From Roseibaca calidilacus (GTDB taxonomy: Bacteria > Pseudomonadota > Alphaproteobacteria > Rhodobacterales > Rhodobacteraceae), in the NCBI RefSeq assembly GCF_001517585.1, contig NZ_FBYC01000004.1:806001-870000 (forward strand): a stretch of DNA of 64,000 nucleotides. The letters run 5' to 3'. Positions 4,237-41,978 of this stretch are shown piece by piece. A program made the position numbers and the translations under genes. Position 1 is the stretch's first letter. Every line of letters starts with the position of its first letter. The notes below the pieces were generated by a model. That model did not search any database. It was not told the DNA's origin and saw only the letters and a program-made list of their open reading frames with translations.

Positions 4237-4428
4237 GATCTTGCTCCTACTACCCGCTGCGCCTGCTTTAGGGCATTGCCCGGAATGCTGCAAGCGACAG
4301 GCGCGGGTTCTCGCCCGCATGGGCTATGCTTGCATCGTGCATCTTAAGTGTTAATACTCACAACCATAGCAAGTTCGGGAGCCGTTCACGGATCATCCCG
4401 CGAAAACACAAAAAGTGATGGTGGCAGC

Positions 4429-6534: not shown

Positions 6535-6801
6535 ATGGGGCGATCAAGGCATCCCGACAAAGACATCGAAAGTGCCTTGGCTGAACTTGAGGCGATGGGA
6601 TGGACCGTCGAAATGGCAAAGGGGCGCAGCGCCCACGCTTGGGGCTATGCCCTGTGCCCAGCAAATGCGGGAGATGCCTGTAGATCAGGGACCTTCTGCC
6701 GGATGTCGATCTGGAGCACCCCAAAGAACCCTCGGGGAACCGCACGGGGTCTCATCGGAAGGGCTCAGGGCTGTGTAATGAAGGATGAGACCGATGAGTG
6801 A
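6535..6801 (+). CDS. HicA-like small protein, putative toxin of a two-gene pair
   Basis: An 88-aa protein starting GRSRHPDKDIESALAELE, with GWTV, a conserved-looking AHAWG and three Cys in the middle (YALCP, DACRSG, FCRMS), then SIWSTPKNP. The layout resembles a family of small proteins I recall as HicA-like (dsRBD-fold mRNA interferase relatives), found next to an HTH protein as here. A GGAGG site 8 nt upstream fixes the start at 6535. Its stop overlaps the start of the next gene (ATGAGTGA), so the two are co-translated. Toxin activity is inference; the Cys residues might bind metal. Confidence 0.55.
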   Translation: MGRSRHPDKDIESALAELEAMGWTVEMAKGRSAHAWGYALCPANAGDACRSGTFCRMSIWSTPKNPRGTARGLIGRAQGCVMKDETDE

Positions 6802-38194: not shown

Positions 38195-40285
38195 ATGGCC
38201 GCGCGGCCCGAAGTGCTGTTCCCGCTGTTCGCAGCACTTGATGGGCTGGACGGGATCGGCCCCAAAACCGCGCGCGCCTTTGACGGGCTGGACATTGCCA
38301 CGCCGCGCGACCTGCTGTTTCACCTGCCGCATGGCGTGATTGACCGGCGCAGGCGGGACACCCTGCGCGGGCTTGATTTTCCAGCCATCGCCACGGTCGA
38401 GGTTGTGGTGGGCCAGCATCAGGCACCACGGATGCGCGGGCGGCCCTATCGGGTGTTCGTGCAAGATGCCGAGATGGAATTCCAACTGGTTTTCTTTCAT
38501 GCGCGCGGCGATTACCTGCAAAAACTGCTGCCAACGGGGCAGCGGCGTGTCGTGTCGGGCAAGGTGGAATTGTTCGATGGGATCGCGCAGATGGTGCATC
38601 CTGACCATATTCTGCGCACTGACGAGGCCGAGAGCCTGCCGCAATATGAGCCGGTCCACGCGTTATGTGCCGGTGTCAGCCAAAAGCTGATGGGTCGGGC
38701 CATTGCGGGCGCGCTGGACCGTGTGCCGGTGCTGGCGGAGTGGGTTGACCCCGCGCTGAAGGCGCAAAAGGGCTGGCCGGATTGGGCCGAAGCTGTGCGC
38801 GCGGCGCAAGCCCCGCAAGGGTTGGCCGATCTGGCGCTGGACGCCCCGGCGCGGGCGCGGCTGGCCTATGACGAGGTGTTCGCCCATCAGATGACGCTGG
38901 CTTTGGCACGGGCGCGCGCGCGGCGCAAACCGGGGCGCGAAACGCGCGGGACCGGCGCGTTGCAGGCCCGTGTTCTGGCCAGCCTGCCTTATGCGCCAAC
39001 CGGGGCACAGACCCGCGCACTTGGTGAGATTGCCGCCGATATGGCCAGCCCGCGCCGCATGAACAGGCTGTTGCAGGGCGATGTCGGTGCTGGCAAAACG
39101 CTGGTCGCCATGCTGGCGCTGCTGATCGCGGTGGAGGCTGGCGGGCAGGGCGTGTTGATGGCCCCGACCGAGATTTTGGCGCGGCAACACCTTGAGAGCC
39201 TTGCACCGCTGGCACAAGCGGCAGGTGTGCGGCTGGAGTTGTTGACCGGCCGCGACAAGGGAAGCGAGCGCGCGGCCAAGCTGGCGGATCTGGCGGCGGG
39301 GCGGATTGCCATTCTGGTCGGCACCCATGCGGTGTTCCAGAAGGGTGTCGATTTCGCCGATTTGCGCCTTGTCGTGGTGGATGAACAGCACCGTTTCGGC
39401 GTGGCCCAACGCGCGGCGCTGGCGGCAAAGGGCGAAGGCGCGGATGTGCTGGTCATGACGGCCACGCCTATCCCGCGCTCGCTGGCTTTGGCGCAATATG
39501 GCGATATGGACGTGGCGGTGCTGGATGAAAAGCCACCCGGGCGCAAACCGATCACGACCGCGCTGGTTTCGTCTGCGCGGCTGGATGAAGTTGTCGTCAA
39601 GCTGCGCCATGCGATGGCCGAAGGGCGCCAAGCCTATTGGGTCTGCCCGCTGGTGGAAGATAGCGAAGTCAGCACCCTGACCGCCGCCCAGACCCGGTTC
39701 GAACATCTGCGCGCGGCGTTTGGCGCGGGCGCGGTGGGGCTGGTGCATGGGCAACTGCCCCCGACCGAGAAAGACGCCGCCATGGCCGATTTCGCGGCAG
39801 GCCGCACGCAGCTTCTGGTCGCCACCACGGTTATTGAAGTGGGCGTGAACGTGCCCAACGCCACGATCATGGTGATCGAGCGCGCCGAAAGCTTTGGGCT
39901 GGCCCAGTTGCACCAGTTGCGCGGGCGCGTGGGGCGCGGGGCCGATGCCTCGACCTGCCTGCTGATCTACGAGCCGCCCTTGGGTGACACCGCCGCGCGC
40001 CGTCTGAAACTGCTGCGCGACAGCGAGGATGGCTTTCGCATTGCCGAAGAAGACATGGCCATTCGCGGCGCGGGTGACCTGATTGGCACGGCGCAATCCG
40101 GCCTGCCACGGTTTCGCGTGGCCGATCTGGAACGGCAAGCGGCGCTTATGGCACTGGCGCAATCGGATGCGCGCAAATTGTTGGCAGACGATCCCGACCT
40201 GACCAGCCCAAGGGGTCGCGCCGCGCGCGTGGCGCTGTGGCTGATGGAGCAGGACAAGGCGATTCAATACCTTTCCGTTGGTTAA
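38195..40285 (+). CDS. recG: ATP-dependent DNA helicase RecG
   Basis: A 696-aa branch-migration helicase acting on stalled forks. The N-terminal wedge domain contains GPKTARAFDGL; helicase motifs are LLQGDVGAGKT (I), VVDEQHRFG (II), MTATPIPRS (III) and QLHQLRGRVGRG (VI). It is in an operon with ligA. Its stop is 1 bp before a LexA box that controls the next small gene. Confidence 0.96.
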   Translation: MAARPEVLFPLFAALDGLDGIGPKTARAFDGLDIATPRDLLFHLPHGVIDRRRRDTLRGLDFPAIATVEVVVGQHQAPRMRGRPYRVFVQDAEMEFQLVFFHARGDYLQKLLPTGQRRVVSGKVELFDGIAQMVHPDHILRTDEAESLPQYEPVHALCAGVSQKLMGRAIAGALDRVPVLAEWVDPALKAQKGWPDWAEAVRAAQAPQGLADLALDAPARARLAYDEVFAHQMTLALARARARRKPGRETRGTGALQARVLASLPYAPTGAQTRALGEIAADMASPRRMNRLLQGDVGAGKTLVAMLALLIAVEAGGQGVLMAPTEILARQHLESLAPLAQAAGVRLELLTGRDKGSERAAKLADLAAGRIAILVGTHAVFQKGVDFADLRLVVVDEQHRFGVAQRAALAAKGEGADVLVMTATPIPRSLALAQYGDMDVAVLDEKPPGRKPITTALVSSARLDEVVVKLRHAMAEGRQAYWVCPLVEDSEVSTLTAAQTRFEHLRAAFGAGAVGLVHGQLPPTEKDAAMADFAAGRTQLLVATTVIEVGVNVPNATIMVIERAESFGLAQLHQLRGRVGRGADASTCLLIYEPPLGDTAARRLKLLRDSEDGFRIAEEDMAIRGAGDLIGTAQSGLPRFRVADLERQAALMALAQSDARKLLADDPDLTSPRGRAARVALWLMEQDKAIQYLSVG

Positions 40286-40286
40286 T

Positions 40287-40301
40287 GTTCCAAATTTGTT
40301 C
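40287..40301 (+). promoter_or_regulatory. LexA (SOS) box, alphaproteobacterial type
   Basis: A perfect GTTC-N7-GTTC (GTTCCAAATTTGTTC), the established LexA motif of Alphaproteobacteria. It directly abuts TTGACT (40302-40307), a good -35 for the microprotein gene at 40358. Confidence 0.75.
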
Positions 40302-40357
40302 TTGACTAGATGCAGAGCAAATGAGAACATTCAAGCAACAGAGCAAAGGAGGTTGCC

Positions 40358-40471
40358 ATGTCACAGCTTAACAGCAAAGCCGGTCGCACAATGTTCATTC
40401 AGGATTTGTGCGGCGGTCTGTCGCTTGTGGTTCTGGTGGTTGCCGCCTTTCATCTGCCGCTCTTGACCTGA
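40358..40471 (+). CDS. 37-aa membrane microprotein under LexA control
   Basis: A small ORF with an excellent AAGGAGG site 6 nt before the ATG. The 37-residue product has a polar N-terminus (MSQLNSKAGRTMFIQD) and one hydrophobic helix (about 17-36, with SLVVLVVAAFHLPLL), so it should be a single-pass inner-membrane peptide. It has its own LexA box and -35 upstream and a strong terminator downstream, forming a complete SOS-controlled monocistronic unit. Caulobacter SidA, a 29-aa LexA-regulated membrane inhibitor of division, has the same architecture. I cannot claim sequence homology, so a division-inhibitor role is inference. Confidence 0.7.
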   Translation: MSQLNSKAGRTMFIQDLCGGLSLVVLVVAAFHLPLLT

Positions 40472-40519
40472 GCCGATTACACTGCCAGCGGGTTTGCCTG
40501 CCCGCGCCTGACCTGACTG

Positions 40520-40558
40520 TCGCCGCCATGCACCCCCACGCATGCGCGGCGATTTTTT
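40520..40558 (+). terminator. Strong rho-independent terminator of the microprotein gene
   Basis: The stem TCGCCGC/GCGGCGA is extended by CATG/CATG with one bulged base and a 10-nt loop, followed by TTTTTT. It lies 49 bp after the microprotein stop. Confidence 0.85.
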
Positions 40559-40622
40559 AGGCGCGCCATTTGCCAAAGCCCTTGGGCGCGGTTATCTGGG
40601 GCCAAACAGGAAAGGGCTGGCT

Positions 40623-41978
40623 ATGGACAAGGTTCTGAACATCGTGGGCGGCGGTATGGCGGGGGCAGAGGCCGCGTGGCAGGCCGCCAAAATGGGGGTT
40701 GATGTGGTCATCCACGAAATGCGCCCCAATGTCGGCACCTTCGCGCATCAGACCCAGCACTTGGCGGAAATGGTCTGCTCCAATTCCTTCCGCTCGGATG
40801 ATGATGAAAACAACGCTGTGGGCCTGTTGCATTGGGAAATGCGCGCGGCGGGCGGGATTATCATGGAAATGGCCGATGCCCATGCACTGCCCGCCGGTGG
40901 CGCGCTGGCCGTGGATCGCGACGCGTTTGCTCAGGCCGTGACGGCACGGCTACTGGCGCACCCGCGCATTTCCGTGCAACGCGGCGAGGTGACGGCGCTG
41001 CCCGAGCAGGGGCAGTGGGTTTTCGCCACCGGGCCGCTGACATCCGGCACATTGGGGCAGGCGATTGCGGCGGAAACCGGCGCCGAAGCATTGGCGTTTT
41101 TCGACGCCATCGCGCCCATTGTCTATTTCGACAGTATCGACATGTCGCAAGCTTGGTTCCAGTCGCGCTATGACAAGGGCGAAACCGAAGAAGAGCGCAC
41201 GGCCTATCTAAATTGCCCAATGGATCGCGCGCAATATGACGCGTTTATCGACGCGCTGTTGGCCGCAGAGAAGACAGAGTTCCACGAAGGAGAAACGGCG
41301 GGCTATTTCGATGGCTGCCTGCCGATTGAAGTGATGGCCGAACGTGGCCGCGAAACCCTGCGCCATGGCCCGATGAAGCCCGTGGGCCTGACCAACCCGC
41401 ATGCGCCCGATGTCAAACCCCATGCTGTGGTGCAACTGCGCCGCGACAACGCGCTTGGCACGCTGTTCAACATTGTGGGGTTCCAAACCAAGATGAAGTA
41501 TGGCGCGCAAACCACTGTTTTCAAAATGATACCGGGGTTAGAGAATGCCTCTTTCGCGCGGCTTGGCGGCATTCATCGCAACACGTTCCTGAATTCGCCG
41601 ACCTTGCTGGATGACCAGTTGCGCCTGCGCAAACGCCCCAATCTGCGCTTTGCCGGGCAGATCACGGGGGTCGAGGGCTATGTCGAATCCGCTGCCATGG
41701 GGTTGCTGGCAGGCCGGATGGCGGCGGCGGAAATACTGGGGGCGCATGTGCCCGCACCGCCGGGCGACACGGCCATGGGCGCATTGGTGCATCACATCAC
41801 CGGTGGCGCAGAGGCCAAGACCTTTCAGCCGATGAACGTCAATTTCGGGCTGTTCCCGCCGATTGACGCGCGCGGCGGGCGGCGCGGGCGGCGCGAACGC
41901 TACAAGGCCTATACCGACCGTGCCAAGGCTGCGTTCCGCGGTTGGCTGGCTGCCCAAGCGCACCCCGATGCCGCCTGA
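40623..41978 (+). CDS. trmFO: Folate/FAD-dependent tRNA (uracil-54-C5) methyltransferase
   Basis: A 451-aa flavoprotein making ribothymidine-54 in tRNA using methylene-THF. The FAD-binding [15 protein letters not shown] and the conserved [20 protein letters not shown] (residues about 52-71) are diagnostic. The start at 40623 is preceded by AGGAAAGGGCT. The last 11 bp overlap gluQ. Confidence 0.95.

Follow-up and report, generated by a model that had tools for sequence, protein, structure and literature searches.

The window analyzed here, a stretch of 64,000 nucleotides from the 3.35-Mb genome of Roseibaca calidilacus, contains an SOS-type locus at positions 40287-40558, directly 3' of recG. 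We consider it very probable that the microprotein gene in this locus is real and SOS-controlled. The locus is best explained as a single-gene SOS operon with its own promoter and terminator. Judging by the selection that acts on it, the open reading frame (ORF) is a real, conserved and translated gene, and its product is predicted to be an inner-membrane protein of about 31-49 residues (37 in the window) with its N-terminus inside. A preliminary description of this DNA had proposed a LexA-controlled microprotein with a single transmembrane (TM) helix, its own promoter and its own terminator. The gene turned out to be conserved, its translation is supported by selection and its control by LexA is very probable. 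Two features go beyond that description, a second, inverted box-like repeat in the promoter and a structured 3' RNA in many relatives.

The window protein belongs to no Pfam or NCBIfam family, and no description of it was found in the searched literature, in agreement with the earlier statement that no such protein is named in this group. The same literature yielded no SOS division inhibitor from the family, which includes abundant marine bacteria and standard laboratory species. A gene that is present in 126 of 149 sampled genera and has no Pfam or NCBIfam family is a candidate for filling this gap. Should the conserved head-to-head operator and the attached RNA prove functional, they would represent a new arrangement of LexA control and an SOS-linked RNA in the alphaproteobacteria. 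The main text of a Dinoroseobacter paper (PMC6473078) mentions neither recG nor SidA nor a 'cell division inhibitor'. Neither recG nor LexA is mentioned in the main texts of two sRNA papers, one about Ruegeria pomeroyi (PMC4809877) and one about Paracoccus denitrificans (PMC5107571).

The locus, its operator and the SOS regulon

The recG gene occupies positions 38195-40285; its boundaries come from the list of ORFs and its name from similarity to annotated recG records. This gene and the features of the locus described below are on the forward strand, except for one inverted repeat. Box 1, GTTCCAAATTTGTTC, at 40287-40301, is an exact GTTC-N7-GTTC and a predicted LexA site; the same pattern is the LexA box of Caulobacter (PMC12700426). 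The box adjoins, with no gap, the -35 element TTGACT at 40302-40307, for which the family consensus is TTTACA. The -10 element is non-canonical (GAACAT, 17 nt 3' of TTGACT), and a simple sigma-70 scan of 40100-40800 returned no promoter. A Shine-Dalgarno sequence, AGGAGG, at 40347-40352 precedes the gene of the 37-residue, single-TM microprotein, which extends from its ATG at 40358 to 40471, stop codon included. In the fold of the 3' untranslated region (UTR) a short hairpin at 40488-40505 carries TTTGCCTG at its tip and may represent the conserved 3' RNA in reduced form. The intrinsic terminator, a hairpin with a T run, is at about 40519-40558. The fold of 40505-40562 has an energy of -28.6 kcal/mol and a z-score of -5.9, and none of 200 shuffled sequences folds as well; a simple terminator scan misses this element. 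The next long ORF in the 3' direction, 40542-41978, is presumably trmFO, and a TrmFO gene is found within 2.5 kb of recG in Paracoccus as well. The perfect box abutting a -35 element, the perfect Shine-Dalgarno sequence, the 37-residue single-TM ORF and the strong terminator, all claimed in the preliminary description, are thus present.

The bare box is within chance expectation in the window, where three exact copies are seen compared to 1.54 expected and 19 of 100 shuffles reach three. The other two copies are at 4373-4387 (+) and 6726-6740 (-). Genome-wide, the exact box has 97 matches versus 178 for a reversed control pattern. Conservation is the deciding test. An exact box lies within 200 nt of the start codon in 111 of 115 homologous loci, which puts box 1 above chance, and in all 29 loci read from the window's genus. 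The distance from the box to the start codon is 66-115 nt, with a median of 78 nt, in these 111 promoters. A chance box as the whole story is ruled out because the box is kept together with the ORF across loci. Four loci have no exact box: in G037 the spacing is N6, G048 lacks box 1 but has a perfect GAAC-N7-GAAC, and G085 and G124 have degenerate half-sites.

The relationship also holds in the reverse direction. The 20-nt operator/-35 pattern GTTCTNANAAAGTTCTTTAC was scanned over a species-level genome collection (84,980 species) and was found in at least 118 stretches. Among the matches listed, the microprotein follows on the 3' side in 114 of 118, and recG lies no more than 900 nt upstream in 113 of 118. 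Of the four stretches without the ORF among the matches listed, two break off right after the promoter, and the other two come from assemblies of a Muribaculaceae and a Butyrivibrio. These two assemblies also account for the only non-alphaproteobacterial titles among 80 titles of the matches listed.

The 111 promoters aligned on the box have the consensus GTTC-N6-GTTC-N7-GTTC-TTTACA-N17-GAACAA. The outermost GTTC is found in 90 of them and is absent from the window's promoter. Downstream of box 1 the window contains a second LexA-like repeat, GAACATTCAAGCAAC, on the reverse strand at 40325-40339. This GAAC-N7-CAAC is inverted and degenerate and covers the -10/start region. A GAAC-N7-NAAC is found at this place in 109 of 111 promoters (89 with CAAC, 8 with GAAC and 12 with A/TAAC), and in 100 of these 109 it is 27 nt from the second GTTC. 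The narrower pattern GAAC-N7-[GC]AAC occurs in 97 of 111 promoters compared to a mean of 0.38 and a maximum of 3 in mononucleotide shuffles, a comparison that ignores shared ancestry. In the window's genus the repeat is found in 21 of 29 loci. In G037 (L019, upstream of 1468) the spacing has gone from N7 to N6 in the box array and in the inverted repeat alike, which would be expected of two sites read by a single protein. Because of this joint change, the 11-nt period and the inverted orientation, the second repeat is read as a LexA site, probably a weaker one, that faces the first. Alternatively, GAAC may simply be the -10 element and CAAC a start-site preference. The doubled operator may in part be a promoter feature.

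The recA and lexA genes of the window's genome have one GAAC-N7-GAAC box each in the stretch examined; among 20 stretches around other exact boxes of this genome, recA was recognized by a sequence motif and lexA by a profile. Some of the other exact boxes have AT-rich spacers (L201:1001-1015 (+), L202:1001-1015 (+) and L203:2001-2015 (-)). The genes after them look by eye like rimP, an aldo/keto reductase gene and accA, respectively, and are possible further LexA targets. Boxes GTTCCTATTATGTTC and GTTCCTGTTATGTTC, on the small contigs C2 and C3 (L204:1001-1015 (+) and L205:2001-2015 (-)), precede what seems to be the same small gene, which in L204 has about 97 residues and begins with MESTTYALP. 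It is possibly an SOS gene that has been duplicated and is carried on plasmids.

Distribution and coding selection of the microprotein gene

The sampled family, judging by the named relatives, appears to be the Rhodobacteraceae in the wide sense. A tblastn search with the 37-residue query (E <=1) found matches in 67 of 149 family genomes, one per genus. Thirty of these loci were read; 29 contain the microprotein gene and 28 of the 30 the exact box, and L025 was dropped as a false match. A profile built from the 29 members was then used at a threshold of E <=0.01 in the family search. It has matches in 126 of 149 genera (112 of 132 near-complete genomes), in 35 of 37 genomes of the window's genus (24 of 24 near-complete), and, within the order, in 114 of 121 genomes of high completeness, all of them listed under this family; the three samples overlap and the window's own genome is counted. 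A class sample of 385 genomes gave no convincing match outside the family. Five listed family genomes scored below 1e-12 and 28 others 0.002 or weaker, mostly in long frames.

Loci were read from 115 of the 126 profile-positive genomes, plus G099 and G116; nine weak profile positives (G018, G022, G030, G040, G045, G057, G074, G120 and G146) are outside the count. In 110 of the 115 loci the sequence immediately upstream encodes, on the same strand, the C-terminal 160 residues of RecG. The protein is 40 residues long in 97 of 115, a share that is partly built in, since start codons were picked by a score favoring ATG, a Shine-Dalgarno sequence and a length near 40 residues. Members from the window's genus have 32-37 residues (29 loci), and those from Paracoccus, with 31 (L118:2971-3066 and L297:7422-7514), are the shortest seen. 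In Paracoccus ferrooxidans (CP038202) the box and a 31-residue ORF lie in an interval with no listed gene, the gene table being incomplete. Two further records inspected are entirely unannotated in this interval.

Of the 23 genera with no profile match, 19 gave a match to recG. The gene is genuine in 18; the nineteenth match is a weaker one that falls in a longer frame, probably mfd-like. In 12 of the 18, recG is followed by a hydrophobic ORF of 37-44 residues that has diverged, and divergence thus accounts for part of the absences in the profile search. The ORF has a Shine-Dalgarno sequence in L221-L227, L230 and L234, and further members are L229, L235 and L238, the last a 40-residue ORF behind recG in genome G033. 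Nine of these 12 loci have the exact box, L227 has N6 spacing, and L230 and L238 have no box. L237, where a 36-residue hydrophobic ORF lies behind a perfect GAAC-N7-GAAC, is ambiguous, and no ORF was seen behind recG at L228, L231, L232, L233 and L236. Neither the exact box nor the microprotein was found after recG in any of 28 genomes of other alphaproteobacterial families, which are the best recG matches of a 142-genome sample (best profile E 0.16). The conservation of box and ORF behind recG, on which the preliminary description had staked its reading, is thus borne out within the family.

The idea of a mobile gene was dropped after a tblastn search of plasmids and phages with one member gave no match. 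This null result says little because a 1.58-Mb plasmid record of Pseudorhodobacter turbinis carries a member that can be read by eye and was missed by tblastn.

Selection was analyzed in 218 distinct sequences free of N, from 229 coding sequences. For pairs from distant genera the mean pN/pS is near 0.76 and synonymous sites are nearly saturated; close pairs were used instead. In 24 independent close pairs pN/pS is 0.21, and the changes at codon positions 1, 2 and 3 number 132, 71 and 333, respectively; one close pair, L310/G044, has a pN/pS of 1.0. The codon-position bias and the pN/pS ratio rule out a chance ORF.

The conserved positions of the family are Asp19, Gly22, Leu26, Leu34 and Pro37. 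Asp19 is invariant in the 218 sequences, Gly22 is nearly so, and Leu34 and Pro37 are conserved in 98% and 94%, respectively. Lysine and arginine occur solely before the helix, with a mean of 2.7 per protein in the first 18 columns and none after the helix start, where the alignment columns are hydrophobic. AlphaFold2 predicts a single helix for the window protein, residues 7-36, with a mean pLDDT of 79 that rises to 94 in residues 21-30. Conservation has only a weak helical period, with a p of about 0.03 at 100 degrees and of 0.057 for the best of 90-110. A search with 72 members returned four weak families each in Pfam and NCBIfam, with one or two members each, and none of them is a toxin by name.

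The structured 3' RNA

In many relatives the region between the stop codon and the terminator encodes an RNA that shows covariation, has C-rich loops and is roughly 100-160 nt long. It is probably part of the same transcript as the ORF and may have a function of its own. Within 160 nt of the stop codon, 76% of 115 loci have CTGCCTG and 75% have CTGTCCC, with means of 1.14 and 1.06 per locus compared to 0.04 in dinucleotide shuffles. A hairpin directly before TTTT lies within 300 nt in 106 of the 115 loci, a count with no shuffled control. Of the 213 3' UTRs taken, 203 could be delimited (median 173 nt) and 148 pass a trimming rule (CTGCC near the stop codon and a length of 95-160 nt). Because of this rule, the RNA counts describe members that resemble one another.

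Among the 148 trimmed 3' UTRs, 147 fold at minimum energy with a closing helix of 7 or more pairs, compared to 49 of 148 mononucleotide shuffles. In a swap test the two strands of this helix fit each other better than 95% or more of 60 swapped partners in 84 of the 148 UTRs, and better than all 60 in 39, versus 7 of 148 for a control region; a coarser version of the test gave 33% versus 12% (191 UTRs). The motifs are 70-74% unpaired compared to 42% overall in the 203 UTRs, a figure that includes the terminator and has no composition-matched control. Hairpin loops hold 50% of the bases of CTGTCCC and 77% of those of TGCCTC, compared to 14% overall.

With 72 whole 3' UTRs aligned by sequence, RNAalifold recovered the terminator and nothing else; the swap test and a covariance model from related loci were used instead. 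The model, R1, was built from 8 related loci and searched against 847 kb from the window and 99 loci. It has 35 matches at E <=0.01, eight being the model's own sequences, and each is located 1-80 nt behind the ORF. When 64 R1 matches are fitted to the model, both partners have changed in 25 of 26 pairs, and the signal is lost on sliding; this alignment is biased towards the structure, and some of the matches in it are weak. In 100 whole genomes R1 has a single match in each of 13, placed by its coordinates immediately after the ORF; the model is narrow and the filters were strict, so the 87 misses say little. R1 has no match at the window's locus. The window's genus has a short 3' UTR with a much reduced RNA, and a loose motif set (CTGCC, TGCCTG or CTGTC) is found in 28 of its 29 3' UTRs. 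No Rfam 15 family matches the window at 40200-40700, and the nine matches in 19 relative loci all fail to reach the gathering score and lie a long way from the 3' UTR.

These properties raise the question of whether the RNA is the main product of the locus. The transcript would then be an SOS-induced sRNA, or a dual-function RNA resembling SR1/SR1P, whose C-rich loops pair with other mRNAs, and the microprotein would be its companion. The closing helix, the swap test, the pairs that change on both sides and the enrichment of CTGTCCC and TGCCTC in hairpin loops all speak for such an RNA. The ORF, however, is under clear protein-level selection, and the window's genus retains the protein while its RNA is reduced. 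Folding energy with the terminator left out is only modestly below that of shuffles (mean z -1.2, 25 sampled), and the RNA has no pairing preference for its own leader (3 of 78). On balance, we think it unlikely that the RNA comes first.

Proposed function and relation to known systems

Reasoning by analogy, and with about as much ground for belief as for doubt, we propose that the microprotein is an SOS-induced division brake working like SidA of Caulobacter. LexA would sit on GTTC-N7-GTTC over the -35 element, and probably also on the inverted repeat over the -10/start region, and keep the gene tightly off. DNA damage would cause a quick and brief production of the microprotein. Its single helix would then dock onto a late-divisome membrane protein (FtsW, FtsI or FtsN) and hold septation until repair is done, the same job as that of SulA in E. 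coli and SidA in Caulobacter. The tight double operator could reflect a product that does harm if it appears at the wrong time. The binding of LexA, the induction, the insertion and orientation of the protein in the membrane, and the divisome target are all predicted steps of this scheme.

Damage-induced small single-TM proteins acting on FtsW or FtsN are a recurrent solution (PMC4211646, PMC13396833). SulA (PF03846) was not detected above the cut-off in any of the 149 family genomes, the E. coli control being positive, and the window protein does not match this or any other Pfam family. A weak SulA match was found in G120 alone (E 8.6e-4), with two stops inside. That occupant of the role is therefore absent; the search was for SulA only.

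Some observations count against a division brake. The recG neighborhood speaks for DNA repair rather than division, the helical period of the conservation is weak, and the presence of the microprotein appears to have no clear relation to that of lexA. The lexA gene was undetected in 6 of 149 genera, and the microprotein is present in four of them (G028, G033, G069 and G147); of the six assemblies, four have a completeness below 90%. The ORF is retained in G033, where neither box 1 nor lexA was found in an assembly that is 74% complete. Among 11 genera counted as ORF-less lexA is undetected in two, versus 4 of 138 others (p 0.06). A link between the two absences was rejected at this value, which has L238 counted as a carrier; p was 0.007 before.

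The division brake might be half of a larger, family-wide and so far overlooked SOS device, in which one LexA-controlled transcript with two facing sites gives both a division-arresting microprotein and a structured regulatory RNA whose C-rich loops act in trans on other mRNAs. We put this forward tentatively, as more doubtful than not.

A membrane toxin like TisB or DinQ, which would depolarize the inner membrane and lead to dormancy with no divisome partner, seems to us rather improbable. Such peptides are of the same size class, with a single hydrophobic helix and LexA-type control, and a doubled, seemingly tight operator is what one would expect of a toxic product; TisB and DinQ are SOS-controlled membrane peptides (PMC8145889, PMC3567139). 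The present protein, in contrast, has no lysine or arginine after the helix start, where Asp19 is the only common acidic residue, and its strict residue conservation suggests a specific partner. The Pfam copy searched presumably holds the TisB model, yet the window protein has no Pfam match and the 72 relatives have stray weak ones. There is no Rfam RNA at the locus. Furthermore, tisB and dinQ have long regulated leaders, whereas the leader here should be short, given the median box-to-ATG distance of 78 nt.

Equally little probability is given to another target, such as an envelope protease, a transporter, a component of DNA uptake or of a gene transfer agent, or repair proteins such as RecG for which the microprotein would be a membrane anchor. 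The linkage to recG in 110 of 115 loci favors it, as does the connection of LexA with the networks of gene transfer and competence known from Rhodobacter and Dinoroseobacter (PMC6473078). The gene has its own promoter and terminator, however, so the linkage may be merely an inherited position, and recG has neither the exact box nor the microprotein behind it in the 28 genomes of other alphaproteobacterial families that are the best recG matches of the 142-genome sample.

The proposed division brake can be placed beside several known systems. SR1/SR1P resembles the present locus in combining a small ORF and a regulatory structure in one RNA (PMC8501984); unlike SR1/SR1P, the structured part is here 3' of the ORF and its activity as an RNA is presumed. 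TisB and DinQ of E. coli share SOS control, predicted for the present gene, one hydrophobic helix and a similar size. The tisB gene has an antisense RNA. Antisense RNAs are also known for dinQ (PMC3567139); at the present locus the Rfam search recognized none. YneA, SosA and ChiZ, division inhibitors of Gram-positive bacteria, are membrane-anchored and damage-induced, as is predicted for the present protein. YneA and ChiZ have a LysM domain and SosA has an extended helix outside the membrane (PMC13396833), whereas the present protein has few residues after its helix.

Caulobacter provides two further comparisons. DidA is likewise a small single-TM protein and belongs to the damage response, but it has 71 residues, is SOS-independent and is induced by DriD (PMC4211646). 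SidA of Caulobacter crescentus is an SOS-induced division inhibitor of 29 residues that interacts with FtsW, and it shares with the present system the GTTC-N7-GTTC box of LexA type, an inner-membrane microprotein (predicted here) and an alphaproteobacterial host (PMC4211646, PMC12700426). The likeness is one of layout, and the role of the present protein would follow by analogy. The SidA-type features found are the box over the promoter in 111 of 115 loci and, in the window, a protein of 37 residues with one predicted TM helix at residues 7-36.
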